NCBI RefSeq assembly: GCF_007362475.1
Contig: NZ_CP041687.1
Coordinates: 744,001 to 808,000 of the forward strand
Source: Chryseobacterium sp. SNU WT5
GTDB taxonomy: Bacteria > Bacteroidota > Bacteroidia > Flavobacteriales > Weeksellaceae
Reading direction: 5' to 3'
DNA: 64,000 nt
Shown one piece after another: positions 36,866 through 62,975 of the stretch. The position numbers and the translations under genes were made by a program. Numbering within the stretch: the stretch's first letter is position 1; the number at the start of each line of letters is the position of its first letter. Below the pieces are notes generated by a model. It saw only the letters and a program-made list of their open reading frames with translations, made no database searches and was not told the origin of the DNA.

Positions 36866-36970
36866 GGGATAAAAATTATAGTATTTTTTTTGAATTGAAT
36901 AATTCTAACAATACCAGGCATCAAAGTACTTTTACAGTCATTTACTGGTTAAAAATGTCATATCAACTAC

Positions 36971-37013
36971 GAAGAATGCACGAATAAAATATTCGTGCAT
37001 TCTTCGTTATTTT
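36971..37013 (+). terminator. Strong terminator after the P-type ATPase
   Basis: Perfect 15-bp stem, arms GAAGAATGCACGAAT and ATTCGTGCATTCTTC with a 5-nt loop, followed by a T-rich run after GTTA. It lies 105 bp after the ATPase stop and faces the convergent TPM operon. Confidence 0.8.
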
Positions 37014-54862: not shown

Positions 54863-55729
54863 TTAATAACCAAAAACCTCATTCATACTGAAGGTTTCAT
54901 CTAATCTTATTCCTTTCTCCGTCATTTTCAAACTCGCCAATTCATTATGTGCATCGTGTTCAAAAAACAACAAATACTCATTATCAACACACTGTTTTAG
55001 AAACTTTGCCTTTTCTTCCATGGTTAAAAGCGGACGAGTATCATAACCCATCACATAAACCTGTGGAATATGCCCAACAGTCGGAATTAAATCCGCTGCG
55101 AAAACAATTGTTTTTTCCTGATACTGAATCACTGGAAGCATTTGCTTTTCTGTGTGTCCATCCACAAAGATAACATCCATTTTTAAATCTGGCGCAAAAC
55201 TGTAGTTTCCATTTTGTGGAGTTGGCAAAAAATTTAATTGTCCGCTTTCCTGCATCGGCATAATATTCTCCTTCAAAAAACTTGCCTTTTCTCTTGGGTT
55301 GGGTTCGGTTGCCCATTTCCAATGTTCTTCATTCGTCCAAAAATGGGCATTTTTAAAAGCAGATTGATAACCGGTTCGGTCATCGTTCCATTCTATTGCG
55401 CCACCACAATGATCGAAATGAAGATGCGTCAAGAAAACATCCGTAATATCATCTTTTATAAAACCATATTTTTTCAGGTTTTTATCCAAAGTATCATCCC
55501 CCCAAAGAGAGTAATGACCAAAGAATTTCTCATTCTGTTTGTCACCCAAGCCACAATCGATAAGAATCAGTTTTTTACCGTCTTCCACCAAAAGTGATCG
55601 CGTTCCCAAATCAATCAAATTATTTTCATCAGCAGGATTGGTCCGTTGCCAAAGCGTTTTCGGCACCACACCAAACATGGCACCACCATCTAATTTAAAT
55701 TTTCCGCACTGTATAGGATAGAGTTTCAT
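54863..55729 (-). CDS. Metallo-beta-lactamase fold hydrolase
   Basis: A 288-residue MBL-fold hydrolase. The zinc motif is LTHLHFDHCGGAIEW (HxHxDH, about 102-116), with further ligands in FVDGHTEKQMLPVI and FAADLIPTVGHIP and a late histidine in FEHDAHNELAS. The pattern fits the AHL lactonase-like/YtnP group, which opens lactone rings or cleaves related bonds; whether this protein quenches quorum-sensing signals is not shown. It has no signal peptide. A start at 55729 is the only good one. Just beyond its promoter region lies the left inverted repeat of the GxxExxY gene. Confidence 0.85.
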   Translation of the reverse strand: MKLYPIQCGKFKLDGGAMFGVVPKTLWQRTNPADENNLIDLGTRSLLVEDGKKLILIDCGLGDKQNEKFFGHYSLWGDDTLDKNLKKYGFIKDDITDVFLTHLHFDHCGGAIEWNDDRTGYQSAFKNAHFWTNEEHWKWATEPNPREKASFLKENIMPMQESGQLNFLPTPQNGNYSFAPDLKMDVIFVDGHTEKQMLPVIQYQEKTIVFAADLIPTVGHIPQVYVMGYDTRPLLTMEEKAKFLKQCVDNEYLLFFEHDAHNELASLKMTEKGIRLDETFSMNEVFGY

Positions 55730-55757
55730 AAAATTTTAATTTTTTCTTGATATATTT

Positions 55758-55845
55758 TAAACGCAAAGAGTCGCAAGGATTTTTTTCTTGCTACTCACTA
55801 TTAAGTTCGCAAAGGCGTTTCACTCAGCGAAGGAGTACTCTTTTA
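55758..55845. repeat. Left inverted-repeat arm next to the GxxExxY gene
   Basis: This arm starts with AAACGCAAAGAGTCGCAAGG and contains CGCAAAGGCGTTTCACT at 55808-55824, which recurs perfectly as its reverse complement at 56266-56282. Further pairing extends over most of about 85 nt with scattered mismatches and small gaps. The arm ends at the stop codon of the GxxExxY gene. Confidence 0.7.
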
Positions 55846-56220
55846 TAAATTATTCGCTATTCTTTTGACACCATTTTTAAATAACACGGAATGAAAATTA
55901 AGAACCATCCCAAGTTTAAGTTTTGTTATTCTTAAATAATTCAAAAGCTGATAAGTATGATAACTGTTAATTTCTGGAACAGCTTTAATTTCTATAATTA
56001 CTTTATCTTCAATTAAAAGATCAACTCTGAAAGCTTTTTCGATAAGTAAACCCTCATATTCTACAGGAATATCTTTTTGATTCTCAACTTTTAAACCGTT
56101 TCTCTTTAATTCATAAACTAAACATTCTTCGTAAACTGCCTCATAAAGACCAATACCGAGTTTTCGATGAATTTTTAAACCCGACTCAAATACTATTTTC
56201 GAAATTTCATTTTCAGTCAT
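55843..56220 (-). CDS. GxxExxY family protein (PD-(D/E)XK-like)
   Basis: A 125-residue protein of the GxxExxY family (TIGR04256). The name motif is GLYEAVY (about 25-31). The later part shows a nuclease-like Asp and Glu-x-Lys arrangement, FRVDLLIEDKVIIEIKAV (about 71-88), as in PD-(D/E)XK folds, then YHTYQLLNYLRITKLKLGMV. The function is unknown; a DNA-acting role is inferred from the fold. A duplicated TTTTCAGTCAT straddles the start codon; the outer ATG gives a stop after four codons, so 56220 is used. The gene is flanked tightly by two inverted-repeat arms. Confidence 0.85.
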   Translation of the reverse strand: MTENEISKIVFESGLKIHRKLGIGLYEAVYEECLVYELKRNGLKVENQKDIPVEYEGLLIEKAFRVDLLIEDKVIIEIKAVPEINSYHTYQLLNYLRITKLKLGMVLNFHSVLFKNGVKRIANNL

Positions 56221-56243
56221 TTTTCAGTCATTTACCGTTAAGA

Positions 56244-56333
56244 TCTTTTACTCAAGCCTTGGCTAAGTGAAACGCCTTTGCGATCGAATAGTCACAAATA
56301 TATTAAAATCTCTTTGCGTCTTTTGCGTTAAAG
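56244..56333. repeat. Right inverted-repeat arm next to the GxxExxY gene
   Basis: Reverse-complement partner of the arm at 55758-55845. It contains AGTGAAACGCCTTTGCG (56266-56282), the perfect complement of the core of the left arm, and ends CTTTGCGTCTTTTGCGTT, the complement of the left arm's outer end. It starts 24 nt upstream of the GxxExxY start codon. Confidence 0.7.
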
Positions 56334-56360: not shown

Positions 56361-57383
56361 TCAAAACAATTCATCCGGTCTTCTCGGCACTGCAATCTGC
56401 AAATGTTTATACGCTTTCTCCGTCACCTCTCTTCCTCTCGGCGTTCGAATAATAAAACCTTCCTGAATCAAAAATGGTTCATAAACCTCTTCCAACGTTT
56501 CCGGATTTTCTCCAATTGAAGTAGCCAACGCCGAAATCCCCACCGGTTTCCCACGGAAATTCTCTATCATCACGCGCATAATTCGATTGTCCATATCATC
56601 CAAACCGAATTCATCGACATTCAATGAGTTCAAAGCAAATTTCGTAATATTAATTTCAATTTCACCGTTTCCTTTGATCTGGGCAAAATCGCGAACTCTT
56701 CTCAACAACGCATTTGCAATTCTGGGCGTTCCACGACTTCTTCTGGCAATTTCCAACGCAGCATCTTCGTAGATTTTAATATCTAAAACACGTGCACTTC
56801 TTTCAATAATAATTGATAAAAGTTCAATCGTGTAATATTCTAATCGTGATTGAATGCCGAATCGTGCTAACATCGGTTTGGTCAACATTCCACTTCTTGT
56901 AGTTGCACCAACTAAAGTAAAAGGATTCAATCCGATCTGCACACTTCTCGCATTGGGACCACTTTCCAGCATGATGTCAATTTTATAATCTTCCATTGCA
57001 GAATACAAATACTCCTCAACAATCGGAGAGAGTCGATGAATTTCATCGATAAATAAAACATCATTTTCTTCTAAATTCGTCAGCAATCCTGCTAAACTTC
57101 CAGGTTTATCCAAAACAGGACCCGAAGTTATTTTGCAGCCAACTCCCAACTCATTTGCGATAATATTGGCTAAAGTAGTTTTCCCCAATCCAGGTGGACC
57201 ATGCAAAAGTACGTGATCCAAAGCGCCACCACGGTTTTTCGCGGCTGCTACAAACACCTCTAAATTATCCAAAGTCTTGCGCTGTCCGGCAAAATCCTGA
57301 AAGCTCTGCGGACGGATTTTCTCCTCGTGGATCAATTCATCTTCGGAAAAATTCTCTTTATCGGGGTGTAGGAAATCTGACAT
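56361..57383 (-). CDS. ruvB: Holliday junction branch-migration helicase RuvB
   Basis: A 340-residue AAA+ motor that drives RuvA-bound Holliday junctions. Walker A is [20 protein letters not shown] (about 59-78), Walker [18 protein letters not shown] (about 108-124), the arginine-finger region [20 protein letters not shown] (about 155-174), and the C-terminal winged-helix has [19 protein letters not shown] (about 297-315). Length is standard. The divergent outer membrane gene begins 105 bp beyond its start. Confidence 0.97.
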
Positions 57384-59474: not shown

Positions 59475-59560
59475 TAAACCGCAAATATCACAAAGATTTT
59501 TAGCATTTCTTATTAATAGATTTTGTGTTAAAGATAAAAAAAGTTGATGCAAAAGCGCTC
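59475..59560. repeat. Degenerate copy of the dispersed CGCAAAG-type repeat
   Basis: In the 287-bp gap before hutI the words AAACCGCAAATATCACAAAG and ATTTTGTGTTAAAGATA resemble the outer parts of the repeat arms flanking the GxxExxY gene, with many changes. No GxxExxY gene accompanies it. The rest of the gap holds only promoter-like words. Confidence 0.35.
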
Positions 59561-61329: not shown

Positions 61330-62079
61330 ATGAATCCACTTTTTAATTATACTTTAAAATTAGCCGACGACACTTTGATTTTTGGTCAAAGGTTGGGCGA
61401 GCTGTGCGGACAAGGACCTTATCTGGAAGAGGATATTGCCTTGACCAATATCGCTTTAGATTATCTCGGACAGTCTAATAATTTTTATAAATACGCCGCT
61501 CAAATTCAAGACGAAGGAAAATCTGAAGACGATTTGGCTTTCTTGCGTTTGGAAAAAGATTACCTGAATTGTCAGTTGACAGAACTTCCGAATGGCGATT
61601 ATGCGCAGACGATTCTGAAAGTTTATTTCTTTTCGGTTTATCAGAAAATTCTTTACACAGAATTAATGAAAAGCAGCGATGAACAAATTGCCGCCATCGC
61701 CGAAAAATCTTTGAAAGAAGTAAAATACCATTACACCCATACTTCAACCTGGATCAAAATGTTTGCTGGCGGAACTGAAGAAAGTAAAACCCGTTTAAAA
61801 AGCGCAGTAGAAAATCTTTGGGAATATACCGGCGGAATGTTCGCTGAAACTCCAGGCGAAGGAGATCTGGCAAAATTAGATGTGGTTCCTGATGGAAAAC
61901 ATATTCACGAATTATGGACGAAAATTATCACTGATGATTTCCAAGACTTTGGAATAGAGATTCCTGAAAATGATTTCATGCAAAAAGGTTCCCGAACCGG
62001 CTATCACACAGAATATTTTGGTTTTATGTTATGTGAATTGCAGTATATGCAAAGAACGTATCCTAACTGCGCGTGGTAA
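61330..62079 (+). CDS. paaC: 1,2-phenylacetyl-CoA epoxidase subunit PaaC
   Basis: A 249-residue helical subunit that scaffolds the catalytic PaaA in the phenylacetyl-CoA epoxidase. Landmarks: LADDTLIFGQRLGELCGQGP (about 12-31), DIALTNIALDYLGQSNNFYK, LEKDYLNCQLTELPNGDYAQ, and the end FGFMLCELQYMQRTYPNCAW. PaaC is a ferritin-like relative without the iron ligands. The stop codon is immediately followed by the 171-bp tandem repeat, and diverged copies of the last codons occur twice in that repeat. Length is normal. Confidence 0.95.
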   Translation: MNPLFNYTLKLADDTLIFGQRLGELCGQGPYLEEDIALTNIALDYLGQSNNFYKYAAQIQDEGKSEDDLAFLRLEKDYLNCQLTELPNGDYAQTILKVYFFSVYQKILYTELMKSSDEQIAAIAEKSLKEVKYHYTHTSTWIKMFAGGTEESKTRLKSAVENLWEYTGGMFAETPGEGDLAKLDVVPDGKHIHELWTKIITDDFQDFGIEIPENDFMQKGSRTGYHTEYFGFMLCELQYMQRTYPNCAW

Positions 62080-62168
62080 ATTTAAAAGCGCACAGATTCC
62101 ACAGATTTCCACAGATAACTTTTTTTAAAAATCAGTGTAAATCAGTGTAATCAGTGAGAAACAAAATA

Positions 62169-62249
62169 ATGCAAAATCTCTTAGAAATATTATCCCAAAT
62201 TCCCGAAAGTGAGTTTATACAACAAACTTATCCTAACGACGCTTGGTAA
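62169..62249 (+). CDS. Chimeric PaaD/PaaC mini-ORF, repeat unit 1
   Basis: A 26-codon frame from ATG to TAA. It begins MQNLLEILSQIPE, identical to the PaaD N-terminus, runs through SEFIQQ and ends TYPNDAW like the end of PaaC. It is a by-product of the tandem repeat. Whether it is translated is unknown; it could be a leader peptide or neutral debris. Confidence 0.25.
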   Translation: MQNLLEILSQIPESEFIQQTYPNDAW

Positions 62250-62339
62250 TTTTAAAAGCGCACCAATTTCACAGATTTTCACAGATTCCATTATTTAAAA
62301 ATCTGTGCAAATCTGTGTAATCAGTGAGAAACAAAAATA

Positions 62340-62420
62340 ATGCAAAATCTCTTAGAAATATTATCTCAAATTCCCGAAAGTGAGTTTATACAACAAACTT
62401 ATCCTAACTGCGCTTGGTAA
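62340..62420 (+). CDS. Chimeric PaaD/PaaC mini-ORF, repeat unit 2
   Basis: Same 26-codon frame as the one 171 bp upstream, ending TYPNCAW. The two translations differ only at the third codon from the end of the coding part (Asp in the first, Cys here); a further base change in the first half is silent. Both keep start, stop and frame. Confidence 0.25.
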   Translation: MQNLLEILSQIPESEFIQQTYPNCAW

Positions 62421-62510
62421 ATTTAAAAGCGCACAGATTCCACAGATTTCCACAGATAACTTTTTTTAAAAATCTGTGTAAATCAGTGTAATCAGTGAGA
62501 AAAAAAAATA

Positions 62511-62975
62511 ATGCAAAATCTCTTAGAAATATTATCCCAAATTCCCGATCCCGAAATTCCTGTCATCAATATTGTGGAACTAGGAATTGTTCGGGAAGCA
62601 AAAATGATTTCTGACAATGAAGTAGAAATCGTTATTACGCCGACTTATTCGGCTTGTCCGGCGATGTTTAATATCGAAGAAGACATCGTTAAACTCTTTA
62701 AAGAAAAAGGAATTCAGGCCAAAGTAATCACAAAAATCGCACCTGTTTGGACCACTGATTGGATTACGGACGAAGCTCGAGAGAAATTGAGAATATACGG
62801 AATCACGCCACCAGAAAAAGGAAATCACGAAGATCATTTAAACGTTCCAAAAAAATGCCCGAGATGCGGTTCTGAAAACACGAAACAGATCAGCCGTTTC
62901 GGTTCTACCCTTTGTAAAGCCAGCTATCAATGCAACGATTGTTTGGAACCTTTCGATTATTTTAAATGTCATTAA
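62511..62975 (+). CDS. paaD: Phenylacetate pathway maturation protein PaaD
   Basis: A 154-residue protein needed for assembly of the phenylacetyl-CoA epoxidase, probably for its iron cofactor. The N-terminal DUF59/MIP18-type domain reads LSQIPDPEIPVINIVELGIV and VIVITPTYSACPAMF-like IVITPTYSACPAMFNIEE with the reactive cysteine. The C-terminal zinc ribbon carries CPRCGSENTKQIS and CNDCLEPFDYFKCH. The ATG at 62511 is the third in a series of repeated ATGs. It is separated from paaC by the 171-bp tandem repeat rather than the usual short gap. Confidence 0.95.
   Translation: MQNLLEILSQIPDPEIPVINIVELGIVREAKMISDNEVEIVITPTYSACPAMFNIEEDIVKLFKEKGIQAKVITKIAPVWTTDWITDEAREKLRIYGITPPEKGNHEDHLNVPKKCPRCGSENTKQISRFGSTLCKASYQCNDCLEPFDYFKCH

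Follow-up and report, generated by a model that had tools for sequence, protein, structure and literature searches.

Chryseobacterium sp. SNU WT5 has a genome of 3.04 Mb, of which a stretch of 64,000 nt (contig positions 744001-808000, hereafter the window) was analysed here. In this window, a small gene of the GxxExxY family is located between ruvB (56361-57383) and a gene of the metallo-beta-lactamase fold (54863-55729), all three being on the minus strand, and it is bracketed by inverted sequences. GxxExxY appears to be a widespread family without an assigned function, and neither a function nor an association with repeats was found for it (TIGR04256, PF13366) in the open-access literature. 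The locus raises the question of whether the gene and the repeats belong together, as the first-pass annotation had proposed, and, if they do, what kind of element they form.

Structure of the arms

The GxxExxY gene encodes a full-length protein of 125 aa with all of the family motifs, matching TIGR04256 with 134.4 bits (cut-off 35, E 2.2e-39) and PF13366 with 135.2 bits (cut-off 22, E 1.7e-39). Together with its arms (Table 1) it makes up a compact unit of ~580 nt, with one gene between two inward-facing arrays of short words. As had been noted at first reading, a 17-nt core at 55808-55824 matches 56266-56282 in reverse complement without a single mismatch, and the ungapped arm extends over 27 nt with 93% complementarity (55807-55833 and 56257-56283). 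With an inverted-pair score of 55, the arms were the best pair of the window at that spacing; elsewhere, among 1045 equally spaced window positions, the score did not exceed 35, with a median of 18 and a 99th percentile of 28.

Table 1. Positions of the GxxExxY element and of related gene-free features in the window
Feature	Position	Strand	Description
Left arm	55756..55837	+	Read inward: TTTAAACGCAAAG-AGT-CGCAAGG, 29-nt AT-rich spacer, TTCGCAAAGGCGTTTCACTCAGCGAAGG
Conserved inner core of the left arm	55807..55833	+	GTTTCAC with a copy of the word on either side; columns conserved among 32 arms
GxxExxY gene, predicted PD-(D/E)XK nuclease of the Cas4/RecB type	55843..56220	-	Profile matches, motifs, model
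Right arm	56253..56333	-	Read inward on the minus strand: TTTAACGCAAAAGACGCAAAG, 29-nt spacer, ATCGCAAAGGCGTTTCACTTAGCCAAGG
Decayed gene-free word pair	59476..59535	.	AACCGCAAATATCACAAAG ... TTTTGTGTTAAAG; weak, identified by eye
Tandem array, gene-free inward pair of another word type	62055..62548	.	Period 171, 2.9 copies; CACAGATTCCACAGATTTCCACAGA / CACTGATTACACTGATTTACACAGA

It was initially suggested that the arms were inverted repeats of ~85 nt in which the pairing continued outward from the core. Both arms are present, but they consist of word arrays and not of an extended stem. When aligned inward, they read TTTAACGCAAAG-NNN-CGCAAAG, a 29-nt spacer and then TCGCAAAGGCGTTTCACTTAGCCAAGG, so the outer words (CGCAAAG and CGCAAGG) are parted from the core by a spacer that is kept in length and differs in sequence between left and right, and the outward pairing is not continuous. 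The right core also ends 36 nt before the ATG, rather than the 24 nt first given for the right arm.

The same organisation was found in 32 distinct arms of the window type, in which the information content peaks in the words and is highest in the core. The gap from the upstream word to the core was 29-32 nt in 22 of the 28 arms for which an upstream word was found. In the elements generally, the words are about 7-9 nt long with their spacing kept, and the outer edge is often TTTAAC. The left and right spacers were 34% identical within an element compared to 41% between elements, while the cores were 85% identical. As the cores are common to both arms and the spacers are not, each arm is best described as a series of sites at a constant distance and not as one half of a long stem, and the unpaired spacers between the words indicate that no long hairpin is maintained. 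A long hairpin between the arms, in either RNA or DNA, was rejected on the basis of these non-complementary spacers.

A small hairpin within the core was also considered. Positions 9 and 13 of GCAAAGGCGYTTCRCT change together (T-A 123, C-G 24, T-G 3, C-A 0), and in a DNA folding model only the C-G form folds (-1.9 kcal/mol, against 0 for the T-A form). A core hairpin is not claimed, because the search pattern was degenerate at both positions and descent explains the two forms equally well.

Predicted nuclease

The AF2 model of the GxxExxY protein had a pLDDT of 95.2, and its top match among solved structures was Cas4 SSO0001 (Z 9.7 over 100 residues, rmsd 3.5), followed at Z 6-8 by restriction enzymes, Holliday-junction resolvases and other PD-(D/E)XK folds. 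The motifs were G22-x-G24-x-x-E27-x-x-Y30, D67, E77-x-K79 and Q91-x-x-x-Y95, the last of the QxxxY form, which is a motif of RecB/Cas4 nucleases. In ten diverse members of the family G22, G24, E27, Y30, D67, E77, K79, Y95, N108 and F109 were invariant and Q91 nearly so, and the catalytic D...ExK and the QxxxY motif are therefore intact. We predict that the protein is a PD-(D/E)XK nuclease of the Cas4/RecB type whose active site is intact, and we infer nuclease activity. The domain search returned PF13366 only, with no known transposase domain, no HUH (Y1) domain and no PF04754, and a sequence search of solved structures with the family alignment gave nothing significant.

Arms at other GxxExxY genes

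GxxExxY matches were detected in 33 of 36 genomes of the genus; a single genome has as many as ten, some of them fragments. Matching inverted arms (score at least 26) were present at 71 of the 86 GxxExxY genes (83%), compared to 2.3% of 860 offset controls, and a score of at least 34 was reached at 55% of the 86 loci compared to 0.2% of the controls. When arms were paired across different loci, 4% reached 34. The window genome itself has two more GxxExxY genes, one bracketed by inverted arms that differ from those of the element described here (ACCACAAAAGGCACAAAAGTT), the other by weaker ones.

Outside the genus, 80 loci from other genomes, mostly Bacteroidota, had a median score of 31, with 59% at 30 or above and 42% at 34 or above, while none of their offset controls reached 30 (maximum 26). 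In ten further genomes (Anabaena, a Planctomycetota, two Acidobacteriota, Methylobacter and five of the Bacteroidota/Ignavibacteria group), 17 of the 27 GxxExxY copies tested scored at least 26; the Planctomycetota copy, cut by a contig end in this set, scored 31 among the 80 loci. Beyond the genus, arms are thus found again in Anabaena, Acidobacteriota, Methylobacter and many Bacteroidota, and each of the four Anabaena copies has a different arm word, the left arm always matching the right. The expectation that GxxExxY genes are always flanked by arms holds for most of the genes in the genus but not for all of them, since no clear arms were seen at the remaining 15 of the 86, nor at about a third of the copies in the ten distant genomes. 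Genes without repeats, or repeats unassociated with the gene, were not found as the general rule.

A GxxExxY protein of genome G013, in the same genus, has a 99% identical relative in Kaistella palustris. Matches were found in only 8 of 72,556 plasmid records, a search of phages gave none, and viral contigs contained a single relative (L248), with arms present. The few plasmid matches and the lack of phage matches indicate that the unit does not travel often.

The arm word follows the protein

The arm word differs between GxxExxY subfamilies. Three subfamily words are CGCAAAGG, ATTAAGG and CACAAAAG, and others include CCACAAAAG, CCGCAAAAGAG, CACATTAG, CACGAATG, TCGAATTA, CACAGATT and CATCATAG. 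At pairs of loci without a common flank, the more alike the proteins are, the more similar the arms are in their 7-mers (Mantel r=0.28, p<=0.001), where the best of 1000 permutations was 0.08 and control flanks 600 nt away gave r of about 0. This covariation can mean that the protein recognises the word, or that gene and arms travel or are inherited jointly without recognition; in either case the gene and the arms are one unit.

Gene-free copies

Some ten partial copies of the window element's arm are scattered over the rest of the genome, mostly single arms starting with TTTAAC. A degenerate arm near 59475 had been taken as a hint of solo copies, and it can be recognised as a weak, decayed word pair; better gene-free copies sit elsewhere, so that the repeat is indeed dispersed through the genome without the gene. 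Among the matches listed for the genus there were 150 of word A and 80 of word B, and the reversed patterns gave almost none. Neighbouring words face inward in 24 pairs and outward in 2, the latter only inside tandem arrays. The gene-free forms are single arms, inward pairs, which are 38-104 nt apart, and tandem clusters with periods of about 120-320 nt.

The number of words is associated with the type of gene in the genome, with A and B subfamilies assigned by eye from the protein sequences. Word A had a mean of 9.1 in genomes with an A-type gene or its wreck compared to 2.25 in those without (p=8e-5, and p=8e-4 after removing the element's own arms, kinship being ignored in both). For word B the means were 5.5 and 0.96 in genomes with and without a B-type gene (p=5e-4, and 0.025 minus own arms, again ignoring kinship). 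The cross combinations (A word with B gene, B word with A gene) gave no significant excess among the genus genomes. Many A words are kept in several genomes without an A gene, such as G006 with 12 and G008 with 8.

Other repeats were observed beside these copies. The tandem array at the end of Table 1, which has the CACAGATT word, is located between paaC- and paaD-like genes and also duplicates the start of the paaD-like gene. A near-perfect short palindrome at 36969-37008 (ACGAAGAATGCACGAAT...ATTCGTGCATTCTTCGT) contains an ACGAAT word resembling the one found with the MAIIYKEE subfamily, and it could equally be a terminator. A different dispersed intergenic repeat (CTACAGCCCGRCTTGAGTGGAGCTC...AGCGGGAACGGARGRCGGAA) was seen at L115 (G010), L010 and L014.

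Filled and free sites

At the ruvB site, a gene or its wreck was detected in 10 of the 30 loci read; all ten had arms and none of the rest had the arm core. The scan stopped short of this site in G009, which has the gene and arms (L075), and in G018, which has only a scar. In three relatives a four-helix-bundle gene occupies the ruvB site instead of GxxExxY, and in G013 and G035 the arms are tandemly multiplied there. Four further sites of G006 are filled in some relatives and free in others. Free sites were without a trace of arms at L265 and L267, while gene-free inward pairs were kept at L257, L263 and L266.

Empty ruvB sites in relatives had been suggested as a way of examining the proposed unit. 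Loci without the gene do lack the arm core, but the free relatives at the L075 site are not clean empty sites, as only the outermost words remain (TAACGAA-GTTCTTTGTGTTAAAA), which corresponds to a deletion between the arms; the scars in G018 and G034 read TAACGAAGTTCTTTGTGTTAAAA. Such scars at some of the apparently empty sites mean that loss is frequent, and absence is therefore not proof of insertion. Target-site duplications were sought at eight sites and none was resolved, the flanks being 75-97% identical and the junctions obscured by decay, and no clean insertion junction was seen between filled and free sites even at 94-97% flank identity.

L254 (G035, at the L086 site) is a gene-free pair with a left arm of the ACGAAT type and a right arm of the CAAAAG type, and this mixed pair shows that hybrid or nested elements occur. 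At the intergenic site of L081, L268 and L272, different word types are present in different species and the 3' end of the upstream coding gene is itself word-like (TACCGCAAAAGAGA...), so a target preference is possible.

Discussion

The arms and the gene behave as one unit with dispersed gene-free relatives, and in this part the first proposal is supported: arms accompany 71 of 86 genes against 2.3% of controls, the word follows the protein subfamily at non-orthologous sites, and gene and arms occur together at the ruvB site. The explanation that we consider probable is a nuclease with cognate repeats, in a layout like that of a REPtron and with an unrelated enzyme. The protein would recognise the word array of its own element, with a dimer or oligomer probably acting at both ends, and would nick or cut at the bound arrays. 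Repair or copying from another element could then spread the arms, with or without the gene, and could also keep the left and right arms alike. Its mode of action would resemble that of a REPtron, which combines a RAYT gene with REP/REPIN/BIME, except that an unrelated nuclease replaces the HUH transposase.

Another, rather unlikely possibility is an ordinary insertion element, where the arms serve as terminal inverted repeats and contain subterminal binding sites, GxxExxY acts as the transposase or an accessory to it, and the gene-free pairs are cut-and-paste MITEs. Both ends have inward arms, inward pairs without the gene exist, and the arms are missing together with the gene at L265 and L267, all of which would fit. 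However, PF13366 was the only domain found, with none known from transposases, and no target duplication was resolved. The strong variation of the word within a family of a single fold, the common occurrence of single-orientation arms and tandem arrays, and the rarity of the family on plasmids and phages also argue against it.

A passive, locally evolving repeat or regulatory site, with which the gene is co-inherited, is improbable. Here the protein could, for example, be an autoregulated or defence-type nuclease with the arms as its operators, and the gene-free copies would be decay products. This could explain the scars after gene loss between the arms (G018 and G034 at the L075 site) and the sites that hold either genes or gene-free pairs (L254, L263, L266). 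It does not account for the copies dispersed at many other places or for the higher word numbers in genomes with the matching gene type, and a two-arm symmetry that includes an arm downstream of the gene would be unusual for an operator.

An RNA hairpin element of the kind known from 23S rRNA intervening sequences, where the arms pair in the transcript and the ORF is the loop, is very improbable: a single small ORF does lie within complementary ends, and S23-like four-helix-bundle genes of the same genomes are also bracketed by inverted word arrays, but the spacers are not complementary, Rfam gave no match, and the location is beside ruvB and not in rRNA.

With a nuclease and cognate repeats as the preferred explanation, the element can be compared with known systems. 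The repeat of REPtrons is scattered between genes, where it forms singles, inverted doublets and tandem clusters (PMC8266576). As in a REPtron, the GxxExxY gene is flanked by, and the genome seeded with, the same repeat, which is specific to the gene subfamily, and the element may by analogy work like one. In contrast, RAYT is an HUH Y1 transposase and GxxExxY a predicted PD-(D/E)XK nuclease; REP is a GTAG-tagged palindrome and the GxxExxY arms are arrays of short words with kept spacing; and GxxExxY genomes hold several genes with different words. No column pattern of a 20-50-nt palindrome preceded by GTAG was found in the 32 aligned arms. As neither of the molecular definitions of a REPtron (HUH transposase, GTAG palindrome) applies, the GxxExxY element is not a member of that class.

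Rpn proteins (YhgA-like, PF04754) are multi-copy PD-(D/E)XK proteins. These recombination-promoting nucleases have been linked to DNA mobility in the abstract (PMC5350276), but they belong to a different Pfam family, and cognate repeats are not mentioned in the abstracts.

The 23S rRNA intervening sequences of Coxiella and Leptospira likewise have one small ORF and inverted ends, and in Coxiella heptamer repeats (GACAGAT) are located upstream of the S23 ORF (PMC4990558). They differ in residing in rRNA, in having a continuous 28-bp stem excised by RNase III and in encoding an S23/four-helix-bundle protein. The GxxExxY element was ruled out as such a sequence by its location at ruvB, the lack of an Rfam match and the unpaired spacers. 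Within the genus, S23-like loci (TIGR02436, L138-L167) have inverted arrays of TTAGAAG, GTTCACA, GTTGTCG, AGTGATG and AGAATAAAG, and 11 of 30 four-helix-bundle loci scored at least 34 compared to 0 of 60 offset controls. One four-helix-bundle gene (C1:807958-808272) starts at the edge of the window (63958 to beyond its end).

Direct repeats of the heptamer TAACTGA in Beggiatoaceae, Cyanobacteria and Bacteroidetes resemble the GxxExxY words in being sporadic intergenic arrays of a 7-nt word common to distant phyla. Their authors wrote that 'no mechanism is evident' and regarded the repeats as possible regulators of translation; nucleases are not mentioned in that paper (PMC4679880). No prior description of an association between GxxExxY and such words was found in the open-access literature. 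A broader proposal, which we regard as tentative and rather doubtful, is that there is an undescribed and widespread class of elements, selfish or domesticated, in which small proteins of unrelated folds (GxxExxY, S23-like) each read a 'dialect' of word arrays, and that these proteins are behind the many word repeats that occur sporadically between genes in Bacteroidota, Cyanobacteria and other phyla.

To summarise, the link between GxxExxY and its repeats gives the family a candidate substrate and the intergenic repeats a candidate origin. The subfamilies with different words would provide a ready-made series for studying possible sequence reading by a minimal Cas4-like nuclease.
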